A DNA stretch of 64,000 nucleotides from Bacteroidota bacterium. Its GTDB lineage: Bacteria; Bacteroidota; Ignavibacteria; UBA10030; UBA6906. The position numbers and the translations under genes were made by a program. The stretch is from positions 62,001 to 126,000 of the forward strand of contig JAUQWO010000088.1 in the NCBI GenBank assembly GCA_030835135.1, read 5' to 3'. Shown piece after piece: positions 19,636 to 25,627 of the stretch. Numbering within the stretch: position 1 is the stretch's first letter; the number at the start of each line of letters is the position of its first letter. A model generated the notes under the pieces. It was given only the letters and a program-made list of their open reading frames with translations, searched no databases and was not told the DNA's origin.

Positions 19636-19728
19636 ATGCCACTATCCTCTATCGCGGGAGTTCCGTATATTGCTCACGGTCGTTCACCGCATTCCGCTCC
19701 ATCGGATCCACCAGCACATGCAGCCACC

Positions 19729-20730
19729 ATGACCTCCCGCGAACGCGTCTTTGCAGCCCTGGACCATCGCACACCGGACCGCGCTCCGCGCGATCTCTGG
19801 GTGCTTCCCTACGTGACCCTCTTCCGCCGCGAGGAGCGCGATGCCCTCCTGCGCCGATTCCCATCCGACTTCGCGAGTCCCGAGATCAGTCCGGGTTCCG
19901 ATGACCGGGACCTGGTAAAACTGATGCACGAGGGGATGTACACGGATGAATGGGGGAGTGTCTGGCATGTTGCAGAGCCGGGCGTGGTGGGAGAAGTGAA
20001 GCGGCCCGTGCTCGCCGAGTGGAGTGCGCTGCAGCATTTCCAGCCGCCCTGGGATTTCCTCACAACGCGCGACTGGAATCACATCAACAGGATGTGCGAG
20101 GGATCGGACAGGTTCGTGCTTTCCAGTGTGTGTGCCCGTCCGTTCGAACGATTGCAGTTCCTCCGTGGGACCGAGAATCTCTACATGGACCTTGCCGAGG
20201 ATTCCGCGGAGTTGCGGACATTGATCGGGATGGTGCGCGACTTCTATCGCGAGGATGTCACGCTCTGGTCGCGCTCGGCGGTGGACGGGGTCATGCTCAT
20301 GGACGACTGGGGATCGAACATCGCCCTTCTGATCAGTCCGGAGATGTGGCGCGCGGTGTTCAAACCGATCTACAAGGAATTCTGCGACATCATCCACCGC
20401 GCGGGGAAGCGTGTCTTCTTCCATTCCGACGGGAACATCGAAGCCATTTATCCCGACCTCATCGAGGTGGGAGTGGATGCATTGAATTCGCAGCTGTTCT
20501 GCATGAACATCGAGGAACTGGGGAGGAAGTACCGGGGGAAGATCACGTTCTGGGGCGAGATCGACAGGCAGCGCGTGCTGCCGTACGGCACGCCGGCGGA
20601 GGTCCGTGCCGCCGTACAGCGGGTGCGGGCTGCGCTGGATGATGGCACCGGCGGTGTGATCGCGCAATGTGAGTGGGGGAAGGACAATGCGCGGGAGAAC
20701 GTTGAAGCGGTGTACGAAGCATGGACATGA
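19729..20730 (+). CDS. URO-D-family protein of unknown function
   Basis: 333 residues from the ATG at 19729 (MTSRERVFAALDHRTPDR, the usual beginning of this clan); a longer reading from 19636 lacks support. It is a TIM-barrel protein of the uroporphyrinogen decarboxylase superfamily with MLMDDWGSN, a VFFHSDGNIEAI segment and a VDALNSQ segment. The HxC...C zinc motif of the corrinoid methyltransferases MtaA/MtbA is not present (HSD instead) and the arginine-rich HemE N-terminus is lacking. It is therefore neither a proven methyltransferase nor HemE. A second member lies convergently 22 nt away. Confidence 0.8.
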   Translation: MTSRERVFAALDHRTPDRAPRDLWVLPYVTLFRREERDALLRRFPSDFASPEISPGSDDRDLVKLMHEGMYTDEWGSVWHVAEPGVVGEVKRPVLAEWSALQHFQPPWDFLTTRDWNHINRMCEGSDRFVLSSVCARPFERLQFLRGTENLYMDLAEDSAELRTLIGMVRDFYREDVTLWSRSAVDGVMLMDDWGSNIALLISPEMWRAVFKPIYKEFCDIIHRAGKRVFFHSDGNIEAIYPDLIEVGVDALNSQLFCMNIEELGRKYRGKITFWGEIDRQRVLPYGTPAEVRAAVQRVRAALDDGTGGVIAQCEWGKDNARENVEAVYEAWT

Positions 20731-20752: not shown

Positions 20753-21703
20753 TCAGTAGTTCCCCTCCGCCCGCCACGTCTCGAGCATCGCTTCGTACCG
20801 TTCGAGCGGGAGGCCGGTATAGACGCAATTGCTCGTTGAGAAGATGTAGCCGCCTCCCGGCATCCCGTGTCGGAGGGCGTACCGGACGTTCTCCCGGATC
20901 TCGTCGCGCGTACCGGACTGCAACAGCCCGCAATTCACATTTCCGATCAGACATACCTGCCCGCCGTAGCGTTTCTTCACTTCTGCGATATCCACTCCCG
21001 CCTGCGGATCGATCGAGTGCAACGCGTGCGGGCCGGTCTCGATCAGCTGATCCAGGATCGGCCGGATGTCGCCATCCGTGTGTTTGATCGTGTAGAACCC
21101 CATGGCACGGTAGCGGGCGATCGCCTCCTTGAGGTAGGGCGTAATGAACTCGGCGAACATGCCCGGACTCAGGAAGGGCCCTTCGTTGAAGCAGTAGTCC
21201 GAACAGAGCGCGAACCCATCGAGTCCGCCGTGGGCCCTGAGCGCCGCGGCCTTTGCCACCCACTGTTCCACCAGGGCACGTGCCTCCGCATGCACGGCGT
21301 CGGCATCGTCTGCGATGCGGTAACAGAACTCGGAGAGCCGTTCACCGTCCGGGATCGCGAAGGTCGGGTCGCCATGCATCATGATGAAGTACCGGTCACC
21401 CGTCCGCTCCCGGATGATGTCGATGATCCGGCATGCCTCCTCCACCGAGTCGGGGTTCTGGTGGATGAAGATGGCATCGTGCTCGAACCGCTCGGCGGTA
21501 CGGATGTAGAGGTCTGCCATGTCCCGGCGGTGCAGCTCCCGTTCCTTCTCCTCCATCTGGTCCCACTGCGCATAGTGCCGGTGGATCGGATGCACCCGCC
21601 CGAACGCCTCCATGGTCAGAAAGAACACGAGTTCAAAATGGGGGACACGCCCGGTGATGGGGCGGCGTTCGAGGGCCGCCATGAAGCGTTCGCGTGGGGT
21701 CAT
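20753..21703 (-). CDS. Second URO-D-family protein
   Basis: 316 residues from the ATG at 21703 (MTPRERFMAALERRPITGR). It shares the fold and layout with the gene at 19729 but is not a close copy. The core motifs are YTIKHTDGDIRPILDQL, HSIDPQAGVDIAEVK, LIGNVNCGLLQSGT and GYIFSTSNCV. Such proteins are frequent in glycan-degrading Bacteroidota, Planctomycetes and Lentisphaerae beside glycosidases and have no agreed function. It is 44 nt behind the PycTM-like gene and probably the third gene of the fucosidase operon. The two convergent URO-D genes leave no room for a terminator hairpin between them. Confidence 0.8.
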   Translation of the reverse strand: MTPRERFMAALERRPITGRVPHFELVFFLTMEAFGRVHPIHRHYAQWDQMEEKERELHRRDMADLYIRTAERFEHDAIFIHQNPDSVEEACRIIDIIRERTGDRYFIMMHGDPTFAIPDGERLSEFCYRIADDADAVHAEARALVEQWVAKAAALRAHGGLDGFALCSDYCFNEGPFLSPGMFAEFITPYLKEAIARYRAMGFYTIKHTDGDIRPILDQLIETGPHALHSIDPQAGVDIAEVKKRYGGQVCLIGNVNCGLLQSGTRDEIRENVRYALRHGMPGGGYIFSTSNCVYTGLPLERYEAMLETWRAEGNY

Positions 21704-21747
21704 GCTGGCCGATCTGTTTCCTGTGTGTGGGACGTCCGGGATGATGG

Positions 21748-22257
21748 TCACCGTGCGAGATCGTAGACCGCAAGGAGCCACGGCACGATGGAGATGTACC
21801 ACGCAAGCTGCGCGCGCTGGATCCAGCGGTACTTGGCCGTGGCGATCTCGGCCGTGCGGTGGGTCTGCTCGATCAGATCATCCAGATACTCTTCTGCCGT
21901 GATGCTCTTGACCGTGTTGCTGTAGGCAGCGTCGTTCATGCGGGCGATGCTGCCGAAGAAGATGATGGAGGAGGTTGTCCGTGATGTGCGGGGGCCCGAG
22001 CTCAGCGACAGGAACAGGATGCCGAGGAGCAGGCCGCCGGCGGAAAGCACGACGAGCAGCACGGTGACGTAGGAAACGTCACCGATACGGGTGATGAGCG
22101 CTGCGAGCACGGCAAGCATGGTGGTGTTGATCCCGATCAAGGTGGAGACCTTCGTGTCAGCCGCCACGTTGGTCTTGAGCTGGCGGGTGAGCGCCAACTC
22201 CATCATCGCGATGCGTCGCTGGATATCCATAGGGTCCTGCTGTGTGGTGGGTTGCAT
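21748..22257 (-). CDS. Pycsar-effector-like (PycTM/DUF5706) membrane protein without a cyclase
   Basis: 169 residues from the ATG at 22257, one base after the stop of the fucosidase; an alternative ATG is at 22230. An amphipathic N-terminus with ADTKVSTLIGINTTMLAVL is followed by a second membrane segment (VTVLLVVLSAGGLLLGILFL), then the FFGSIARM motif, a coiled cytoplasmic segment with EEYLDDLIEQTHRTAEIATAKYRW and a last membrane segment. This order matches the PycTM domain, whose members in Pycsar anti-phage systems open membrane damage when bound by cCMP or cUMP. No nucleotide cyclase gene is nearby. The family call is from recognition of the pattern; a defence role is uncertain here. Confidence 0.7.
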   Translation of the reverse strand: MQPTTQQDPMDIQRRIAMMELALTRQLKTNVAADTKVSTLIGINTTMLAVLAALITRIGDVSYVTVLLVVLSAGGLLLGILFLSLSSGPRTSRTTSSIIFFGSIARMNDAAYSNTVKSITAEEYLDDLIEQTHRTAEIATAKYRWIQRAQLAWYISIVPWLLAVYDLAR

Positions 22258-22258
22258 G

Positions 22259-24313
22259 TCATTCGTGGAACAGACGGTCCGTGGCGACCGGTACCTGTGG
22301 GGCACCGGCACGGCCCCAGGTCAGGACCAGCCCGTCGCCACCTTCACCCTGGAAATAGTCGATGGCAATGCTGTGGTATCCTGCGGACAGTGGGACCATT
22401 GCCGAGCGCTCCGACAGCGAATGCAGTCCGTCGTGGTCTACCACCACCTGTCCGTCGATGGTCAGCCTGCTTCCGTCATCCGAGGCAAGTGTGAACGCAT
22501 ACACTCCCGTTGCATCGACACGGATCAGGCCATTGTACTGCACACCGTACCATTCCGCGCCTGCGGGGCGAACGGGGGTGATGTCCGGCACGATCCCGGT
22601 CTTCATCGGCGTGAGCGAGCGGAAGTCCGGCAGCGCTTTCCACCGTCCTTCATACTGTGCGTACTGCAGTCCCGGGAGGGGATCCCTGACCGCGAGCGCT
22701 GCGAGGGGCTCCACCTTGCGGAACGTCCGGGATGATGCCAGCCCGACCGCTCCGGTCTTCCTGAAATTCCGGGCCGTGACCGTGGTGGTTGTGGTGAGCA
22801 CGATCGGCGTGGTGGTCATGGTGGATGAGGTCGTGGGGGCGCTCCCATCCAGCGTGTAGCGGGTGACGATGCGAGCGGGTTGCTTCGCAAGCGTGACATG
22901 CAGGGTGTCGCAGAAGATGTCCGCGGAGGCCATGATCTGCGGGGCGGTGATGATGGCAGGGGAGCCGGCGATATCGACCGCGAGCACGGTATTGATCGTA
23001 TCGGGTGGTGTTGTCGGGAGCGTGACCTCGATGCCTTCATCCGTTGCGCGCATGGGGAGAGCGGCATGTGACGGGTTGGCCAGGAGATATGCTCTACGCA
23101 CCCTGTTCGTGAGTCCGGGAAGAAGGAGGGTGCCCGTGGACGGCCAGTCGAAGATATGGAAGTAGAGACGTGTGCCCCCCTTGATCGCCTTCTGGGTGCA
23201 CCGTCCGAAGGGGACCGTGGCGAACGGACTTGCCGTGGTCCCGTGGATCGCTTCGCCATTGCTCTTCATCCACGCGCCGATGGCCTCCAGGCGTTCGATG
23301 CTTTCGGGCGGGAACGTGCCGTCCGCCCGCGGTCCGATATTCAGCAGGTAGTTGCCTCCCTTGGAGGCGATATCGGCAAGCATGCGGAGGAGATCCCTGG
23401 ATGACTTCCACGCGGTGTCATGGTCGTTATATCCCCAGTGGTCGTTCATCGTCATGCAGGTCTCCCAATCCACGCCGGGCAATCCTGTTGCCGGGATCTC
23501 CTGTTCGGGTGTGCCGTAGTCTCCCGCGGACACGCCGCCCGCGGAGAAACCCTGCATGCCAGCGCGGCCGCCGTCCACGCGGTTGTTGATGATGATGTGC
23601 GGGGCGTGGGAGCGGACGAACGTGGCAAGGTCTGCGCCGCGCGTCATGTTCCAGGTGGATTCCCATTCGCCGTCGAACCAGAGGATACCGATGTCGCCGT
23701 ACGTCGTGACCAGTGTGCGGAGATGCTCTTTCATAAAGGCAACGTACCGGTCGAAGTCCGCCCCCACCGTATCGCGGTCCGTCTCCCATGCACGACGGGG
23801 GAGGTAGTCGGGATGATGCCAGTCCATGATCGAATAGTACCAGCAGATGCGCATGCCCTGCTTGTGGCATTCATCGGAGAGCTCTTTCATGATGTCGCGC
23901 TTGAACGGCGTGGACATCACATCGAAATCGGTTCCCGGCGCATCGAAGAGCGCGAAGCCGTCGTGGTGCTTGCTGGTGATGACGATGTACTTCATGCCGG
24001 CGGCTTTGGCCATGCGGACCCAGGCTGCGGGGTCGAATTTCGTGGGGTTGAACTGTGCCACGAATCCATCGTAGGTCTTCAGGGGTATCTGGGCGGAGAA
24101 CCGTATCCATTCGCCGTAGTCGGTCCGGCCGTTCCATGATCCGGCGGGGACGGCATAGAGTCCCCAGTGGATGAACAGGCCGAACCGTGCCTCGCGCCAC
24201 CAGTCCATGCGGGTGTTCCGGGCCGGTTTCTGAGCCTGGAGGGGGAGCAGGGGAGCCGCGAGAACGGTGATCAGGAGAGCCACGAGAGCGTGGTGGAGGA
24301 GAGACGTGCGCAT
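22259..24313 (-). CDS. Secreted alpha-L-fucosidase (GH29) with CHB_HEX_C and PA14 domains
   Basis: 684 residues from the ATG at 24313 (AAAGG upstream). There is a signal peptide to about residue 28, then a GH29 catalytic barrel beginning WWREARFGLFIHWGLYAVPAG, with SKHHDGFALF and the nucleophile aspartate in ILWFDGEWE (about residue 213). A C-terminal beta-sandwich is followed by a chitobiase-C-like domain (RYTLDGSAPTTSS) and a PA14 domain (FTLASDDGSRLTIDG) that probably binds glycan. It would release terminal fucose outside the cytoplasmic membrane. It is the first gene of an operon with the PycTM-like and URO-D genes. No T9SS tail is present. Confidence 0.92.
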   Translation of the reverse strand: MRTSLLHHALVALLITVLAAPLLPLQAQKPARNTRMDWWREARFGLFIHWGLYAVPAGSWNGRTDYGEWIRFSAQIPLKTYDGFVAQFNPTKFDPAAWVRMAKAAGMKYIVITSKHHDGFALFDAPGTDFDVMSTPFKRDIMKELSDECHKQGMRICWYYSIMDWHHPDYLPRRAWETDRDTVGADFDRYVAFMKEHLRTLVTTYGDIGILWFDGEWESTWNMTRGADLATFVRSHAPHIIINNRVDGGRAGMQGFSAGGVSAGDYGTPEQEIPATGLPGVDWETCMTMNDHWGYNDHDTAWKSSRDLLRMLADIASKGGNYLLNIGPRADGTFPPESIERLEAIGAWMKSNGEAIHGTTASPFATVPFGRCTQKAIKGGTRLYFHIFDWPSTGTLLLPGLTNRVRRAYLLANPSHAALPMRATDEGIEVTLPTTPPDTINTVLAVDIAGSPAIITAPQIMASADIFCDTLHVTLAKQPARIVTRYTLDGSAPTTSSTMTTTPIVLTTTTTVTARNFRKTGAVGLASSRTFRKVEPLAALAVRDPLPGLQYAQYEGRWKALPDFRSLTPMKTGIVPDITPVRPAGAEWYGVQYNGLIRVDATGVYAFTLASDDGSRLTIDGQVVVDHDGLHSLSERSAMVPLSAGYHSIAIDYFQGEGGDGLVLTWGRAGAPQVPVATDRLFHE

Positions 24314-24511: not shown

Positions 24512-25627
24512 CTATTTGATGAGCGACATCTTCTTCGTGGTCGAGAACGTTCCGGCCTGCATGCGGGTGAAGTAGACACCGGAGGCAACGCGTTTGCCGT
24601 CAGTGTCCTTGCCATCCCATTCGACCGTGTATGTTCCGGCCGCGAACTCCTGGAAGTCCGTCAGTTCTCTGACCAGCCGGCCATGAACGTCATACACCGC
24701 GAGGTTGACCCGTTCAGCTTTCGGGAGGGAAAATTGGATCCGGGTCTCCGGGTTGAACGGATTCGGATAGTTCTGATCGAGATGATATGTGGCAGGTTCG
24801 CCGATGCGCTCTGCAACGTTCGATGACGTGTGCGGGTCGCCATGGCACTGCGTGCACTCCATCTTGGCTGCGACCGTATCCGTGGCGGAGGCTCCGTGGC
24901 AGGTCATGCATGTTCCGACCGAGGCCGGGGCGACATACAACGGAGCGAAGGATCCTGCGAGTTCATCATTCAGGATCTTGGCGGCGTACGCGGCCACGTC
25001 GCCGGTCAGGCGCGCGCAGCGTTCTTTCCGTTCGGCGGAGGAGTTCTTGAAGCCGGCAGCCTCCACCCACAGCGCGTTGGATGTATGGCAGAGAACCGAG
25101 CCGCTGATGGTTTGCACGAGGGACTGGTCGTACCTGTTTTCTGTGAACGTATGGGCTACGGCGCGGTCATTGGACTGGTCTGTGGGGAACTTGGATTGGG
25201 TATACCAACCGAAGAGTTCGCTGGCAAGCACGCTGATGCGCGCCTGAGCAGAGACGAGGGAGATCACAGCGGCTGCGCCGTTGGGTGCGCCACAGGTGGC
25301 CCCCCAGCCCGCTCCACCTCCTGAACCGTACACCATGATCTCTGCGGGGAACGAGCTCCACGGTTCACCGATCTTCTCTGCGAGGGCTTTCACCAGCCCG
25401 TAGAAGGCGCCATAGCAGCAACCTTTGGCGTAGTATGCCTGATGGCCGTAGTTGCGGACCACCTCCACATCGAGGGCCTGGTAGGGGTATGGCCAGGCGG
25501 CCATGGACGGGCCAGCAGAGAGAGGTGAACGTGACACAAGGCTGAGGGCGCCAGCGCCGACGGCCATTGCCGCGACGGCCTTTGTCCCGTTCTGAAGGAA
25601 TTGCTTCCTGGTAAGTGCATCGGACAT
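24512..25627 (-). CDS. Split-Soret-cytochrome-like dihaem protein with T9SS sorting domain
   Basis: 371 residues from the ATG at 25627 (GAGGAG upstream). The N-terminus TRKQFLQNG plus a hydrophobic run is a Tat-like signal with RK in place of RR. Residues about 40-250 match the C_GCxxG_C_C layout of split-Soret cytochromes: KGCCYGAFYGL, YGSGGGAGWGATCG, SGSVLCHTS and RCARLTGDVAA. Two haem c sites follow (CMTCH, CTQCH). The last 80 residues are a type A T9SS sorting domain (LDQNYPNPFNPET ... KKMSLIK). In Desulfovibrio the homologue is periplasmic and carries two haems and an iron-sulfur cluster. Here the tail implies export to or beyond the outer membrane, so a role in electron exchange at the surface is possible. 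Confidence 0.8.
   Translation of the reverse strand: MSDALTRKQFLQNGTKAVAAMAVGAGALSLVSRSPLSAGPSMAAWPYPYQALDVEVVRNYGHQAYYAKGCCYGAFYGLVKALAEKIGEPWSSFPAEIMVYGSGGGAGWGATCGAPNGAAAVISLVSAQARISVLASELFGWYTQSKFPTDQSNDRAVAHTFTENRYDQSLVQTISGSVLCHTSNALWVEAAGFKNSSAERKERCARLTGDVAAYAAKILNDELAGSFAPLYVAPASVGTCMTCHGASATDTVAAKMECTQCHGDPHTSSNVAERIGEPATYHLDQNYPNPFNPETRIQFSLPKAERVNLAVYDVHGRLVRELTDFQEFAAGTYTVEWDGKDTDGKRVASGVYFTRMQAGTFSTTKKMSLIK

Follow-up and report, generated by a model that had tools for sequence, protein, structure and literature searches.

Split-Soret cytochrome c is a homodimer with stacked haems and a split Soret band. The structure used for comparison here, PDB entry 1h21, comes from Desulfovibrio desulfuricans ATCC 27774, whose split-Soret cytochrome c (Ddes_2150) is periplasmic. 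A split-Soret mutant is reported to have had no phenotype in a Desulfovibrio alaskensis screen (PMC4215793), and expression in D. desulfuricans is reported to fall with nitric oxide. The four-cysteine domain of these proteins belongs to family C_GCAxxG_C_C (PF09719), some of whose members are listed as selenoproteins (PMC9312934, PMC13188914). Two other described systems are relevant to the present locus: type A cargo of the type IX secretion system (T9SS), recognized by a C-terminal sorting domain (TIGR04183/PF18962), and ars operons whose products ArsP, ArsE and ArsG are reported as organoarsenical resistance proteins (PMC9144182). A link of a split-Soret cytochrome to T9SS or arsenic was not found in the literature searched; a single paper came up for split-Soret together with arsenic, and it does not appear to connect the two. 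The same literature gave nothing on T9SS together with multihaem cytochromes, nothing on split-Soret selenoproteins, and no ars operon in which a split-Soret or T9SS protein takes part.

The window analysed here (the whole stretch of 64,000 nucleotides from a Bacteroidota bacterium of the class Ignavibacteria) codes a protein that relates to all of these systems. It has the domain order, the fold, the four-cysteine site and the two C-terminal CxxCH motifs of 1h21 but, unlike that periplasmic protein, ends with a T9SS sorting tail. PF09719 accounts for ~120 residues, whereas the window protein combines this domain, matched above the curated cut-off, with both a haem segment and a sorting domain. 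With type A cargo it has in common the sorting domain and a genome bearing SprA; it differs in being a presumed cofactor-bearing cytochrome with a Tat-like RK signal, where Sec-like cargo are the rule in this genome. The split-Soret gene of relatives sits in runs of ArsP, ArsE-like and ArsG-like genes, to which the window's copy is unlinked. We consider the protein to be probably a surface redox protein that crosses the inner membrane, is loaded with haem and an iron-sulfur centre, and is sorted by a SprA-dependent route. Its features, all on the minus strand, are the following:

24512 to 25627, minus: split-Soret-type cytochrome with T9SS sorting tail (P0001), 371 aa
25628 to 25645, minus: ribosome-binding site region read from the sequence, AGGAGATCACC ahead of the ATG
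25502 to 25627, minus: export signal, residues 1-42, motif LTRKQFLQ (RK, not RR)
24821 to 25480, minus: split-Soret domain, residues 50-269, with C70, C112, C180 and C204 as predicted ligands of Fe-S type and H181 and H267 as candidate distal haem ligands
24896 to 24910, minus: haem motif 1, CMTCH, residues 240-244
24842 to 24856, minus: haem motif 2, CTQCH, residues 258-262
24515 to 24769, minus: T9SS type A C-terminal sorting domain, residues 287-371, from profile and structure matches

The start codon of the ORF is the ATG at 25627, with an AGGAG ribosome-binding site ahead of it. The gene is flanked by those for a fucosidase and a 2-hydroxyacid dehydrogenase; nearby there are also genes for two URO-D-family proteins, adjacent and on opposite strands (19636-20730, plus; 20753-21802, minus; possibly methyltransferase-like). 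None of these neighbours is a plausible redox partner and the idea of a local partner was rejected. The gene stands alone, with no ars genes beside it in the window. A PycTM (Pycsar effector-like) membrane protein is encoded at 21748-22311 (minus), and a search of the window against Rfam returned no matches.

Assignment to the split-Soret family, made originally from the letters of the DNA, is borne out. The NCBIfam model NF047622 (split-Soret) matches residues 50-266 with 159 bits (E 1.6e-46), 1h21 matches the same stretch with E 6e-34, and PF09719 covers residues 78-218 with 47.1 bits (cut-off 27). Since the NF047622 score falls short of the equivalog cut-off of 400 bits, the protein represents a distinct branch of the same domain family rather than the Desulfovibrio orthologue. 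When an AlphaFold2 model, for which 21 relatives were used, is compared with known structures, 1h21 comes first (VIA-align Z 26.5, rmsd 3.3, 208 residues aligned, 33% identity), as it does in Foldseek (rank 1, E 9e-13). The haem segment of the model has a pLDDT below 50, as expected because the cofactors are absent from it. The genome codes a second protein matching C_GCAxxG_C_C (G000:C23:105194-105574, minus, L001; 102 bits, frame of 170 residues).

Both haem sites foreseen in the original prediction are present, and the conserved cysteine pattern outside CxxCH, on which that prediction had staked itself beforehand, was found: C70, C112, C180 and C204 are invariant in an alignment of 21 rows, as are H62, H181 and both CxxCH motifs, and the four cysteines align with cysteines of 1h21. 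The invariant residues and the fold suggest that the four-cysteine site would hold an iron-sulfur centre as in 1h21. In six Desulfobacterota relatives (L185, L187, L190, L191, L192, L194) the position of C70, in a column read by eye, has an in-frame TGA read as selenocysteine, which indicates that C70 is a reactive or metal-binding position. Every homologue compared, 57 tailed and 12 tail-less, has two CxxCH motifs and a histidine no more than about a dozen residues past the second. With H181 as well, each chain would have four histidines, as many as two bis-His haems require. H62 was rejected as a general haem ligand: it is invariant in the tailed family, but 1h21 and several Desulfobacterota members have a tyrosine there, which makes H181 and H267 the better candidates.

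The predicted fusion to a T9SS tail was confirmed by two models that pass their own cut-offs on residues 287-367, Por_Secre_tail (35 bits, cut-off 27) and TIGR04183 (33 bits, cut-off 23). FlgD_ig outscores Por_Secre_tail on the same residues (41 versus 35 bits), so that the tail could be read as a FlgD-like Ig domain unused for T9SS export, the protein then staying in the periplasm. We hold this to be highly improbable: beyond the cut-offs passed by the sorting-tail models, the C-terminal domain of the AlphaFold2 model has the PorU CTD among its best structural matches (Z 10.6; PorZ sorting domain, Z 8.8), the genome has SprA, the T9SS component searched for (one frame, summed 1069.8 bits), with at least 150 sorting tails, and 12/12 Desulfobacterota copies tested are tail-less, one of them nested in the tailed clade. 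The split-Soret fold, the tail, SprA and some 150 tailed proteins thus make placement at the cell surface, as originally proposed, a fair inference. Among the 153 tailed ORFs compared in this genome only three have CxxCH: the window protein, a small monohaem protein (L144), and an octahaem c552-like protein with eight CxxCH and a T9SS tail (L135; contig C46, 71-2236, plus), apparently a second multihaem protein sent to the surface.

The search for further fusions in Ignavibacteria-like genomes that the original prediction called for was productive, and its fear that the fusion might be absent from all relatives proved unfounded. A scan of genome contigs yielded 20 relatives with the fusion, mostly from Ignavibacteriae/Bacteroidetes MAGs. 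The split-Soret domain is carried by 64/391 genomes of the window's class, and the tail is present in 57/57 tested copies of the tailed lineage (earlier, the first 30 loci were all tailed). No carrier outside the class was present among a phylum-wide draw of 395 genomes. Within the window's own family the gene was found in 5/21 genomes and is lacking in both remaining genomes of its genus; the distribution is therefore patchy. A plasmid search for the split-Soret gene returned matches to sorting tails only. One tailed sequence comes from a 9 kb contig of a MAG labelled Trueperaceae (L020), which is probably mis-binned. In the Desulfobacterota class reached through a Desulfobacteraceae locus (L028), 15/241 genomes have the domain, and none of the Desulfobacterota split-Soret loci showed a sorting tail in its flanking DNA.

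A tree of the split-Soret domain alone (69 rows; L027 was omitted because its frame is broken) places the copy of Desulfobacteraceae UBA2174 (L100, the same gene as L028, 6001-6822, plus) inside the tailed clade with supports of 99/96 and 99/97. This copy is tail-less, has an RR signal, lies on a long branch (0.72) and is known from a MAG record. Its position keeps the tailed rows from falling together on a single side of any branch. The simplest reading is that the gene was acquired from a tailed lineage and then lost the tail, which presumably had no secretion system to serve in the new host.

The export signal was originally described as Tat-like with RK instead of RR. This holds for the motif LTRKQFLQ, which is a family trait rather than a quirk of the window protein: of 55 tailed members in which a script located a motif, 50 have RK and none has the canonical RR. 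The five departures are RS, RG, RH, KR and L018 (RQ by eye, the script having matched an upstream RH). The readable signals of the tail-less Desulfobacterota proteins, unlike that of the window protein, are all RR. Loss of RR throughout the tailed lineage is one reason to consider that these proteins use Sec, the change from RR to RK, RS, RG or RQ marking lost Tat dependence and the Fe-S centre being either assembled beyond the cytoplasm or missing. Sec is the route of the T9SS cargo already known (PMC5445135), and the h-region of the window protein (best 15-residue Kyte-Doolittle mean, 2.09) overlaps the Sec range. On the other hand, an RK-x-F-L motif kept in 50/55 members would be needless for a free Sec signal, and the weakly hydrophobic h-regions of the tailed family (median 1.62) are near those of the RR signals of the window's genome (1.48) and far from the value of 2.28 for Sec-like T9SS cargo of that genome, a set chosen with a hydrophobicity floor and thus biased upward. 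The genome has TatC and normal RR signals, and in 2/153 tailed ORFs the signal is a canonical RR one. These code a DUF362 protein (L125; C80, 49-1731, minus) and a DUF1501 protein (L173; C16, 52-1662, minus), both candidate cargo for Tat followed by T9SS. Their presence speaks against the Sec reading and makes a Tat-to-T9SS passage plausible here, though one that would not be unique to the split-Soret protein. Weighing these observations, we give export by Sec a substantial chance, somewhat short of even. Attachment of c-type haem occurs in the periplasm; of the preassembled cofactors originally proposed, this leaves the Fe-S centre as the one candidate.

On the preferred reading, that of a probable surface redox protein, the precursor would cross the inner membrane by its RK-type, Tat-derived signal, through Tat or Sec. 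Two c-type haems would be attached in the periplasm and the four-cysteine site would take an iron-sulfur centre as in 1h21. The sorting domain would then take the folded protein through the SprA translocon to be anchored or released, and outside the cell the dihaem/Fe-S unit may move electrons.

The setting in which it would do so was approached through gene context. Together with the minus-strand location, the linkage to ars genes is an addition to what had been noted earlier for this gene. Of the 59 loci of relatives compared, 11 have a MarR regulator gene directly upstream and 18 a gene for a TPR protein, mostly behind a PAS/sigma-54 activator. Three or more of ArsR, ArsE-like thioredoxin, ArsP, thioredoxin and ArsG/DsbD-like permease are found in 18/59 loci; 41/59 have fewer than three such neighbours. 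A frequent run in linked relatives is ArsR-ArsE/Trx-ArsP-Trx-ArsG/DsbD-SSC, and L207, L011, L230 and L233 have a same-strand ars run with the split-Soret gene at its start or end. An ArsP permease gene lies within 15 kb of the split-Soret gene in 22/64 genomes against ~0.5 expected at random, a comparison whose P-value is nominal as the genomes are not independent. ArsP is also commoner in genomes with a split-Soret protein (49/64) than in those without (133/327; Fisher 2e-7). Among Desulfobacterota contexts ArsP is nearby in 1/13 only, at the nested copy. The window's genome has a cluster of ArsP, ArsR, SBF and ArsG-like genes apart from the split-Soret gene, on contig C47.

Because the gene is repeatedly embedded in the ArsR-ArsE-ArsP-Trx-ArsG run of relatives, metal(loid)/thiol stress is the most likely setting for the surface split-Soret protein, a function read from linkage that we put forward tentatively. 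A general role in extracellular electron transfer, such as respiration with minerals or partner cells, the ars linkage then being no more than a sign of common stress regulation or of a mobile neighbourhood of resistance genes, appears rather unlikely. It would be in keeping with the second multihaem T9SS cargo of the same genome and with the location of a split-Soret gene beside cytochrome b reported for Pyrodictium (PMC8105010). A cytochrome b-like membrane protein, judged by sequence, is likewise encoded directly downstream of the split-Soret gene in two Desulfobacterota genomes (L247, 8686-9390, plus; L248, 1934-2638, plus). However, no porin-cytochrome conduit or multihaem gene lies beside the gene in the window or recurs beside it in relatives, two haems are few for long-range conduction, and at least seven families have the linkage to ArsP, in differing gene orders. 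Within the tentatively favoured stress setting, a specifically arsenical role for the family is unlikely. Its most explicit version, slightly less likely still, would make the protein the extracellular redox arm of organoarsenical/metalloid efflux: trivalent arsenicals delivered by ArsP/ArsG would be oxidised (or thiol-bound forms processed) at the surface by an enzyme exported folded, by Tat and then T9SS, their re-entry being prevented.

There seems to be, in Ignavibacteria-like Bacteroidota, a conserved family of surface-carried split-Soret-type redox proteins that is undescribed as far as the searched literature goes. In it, a periplasmic type of cytochrome would have been moved to the cell surface by gain of a T9SS tail, the fusion being fixed across a bacterial class and the tail apparently dropped once a copy had passed into a different lineage. 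The family could show whether a protein that bears cofactors is able to pass through Tat and then T9SS, and its recurrent place in ars-type operons provides a concrete lead on split-Soret function.
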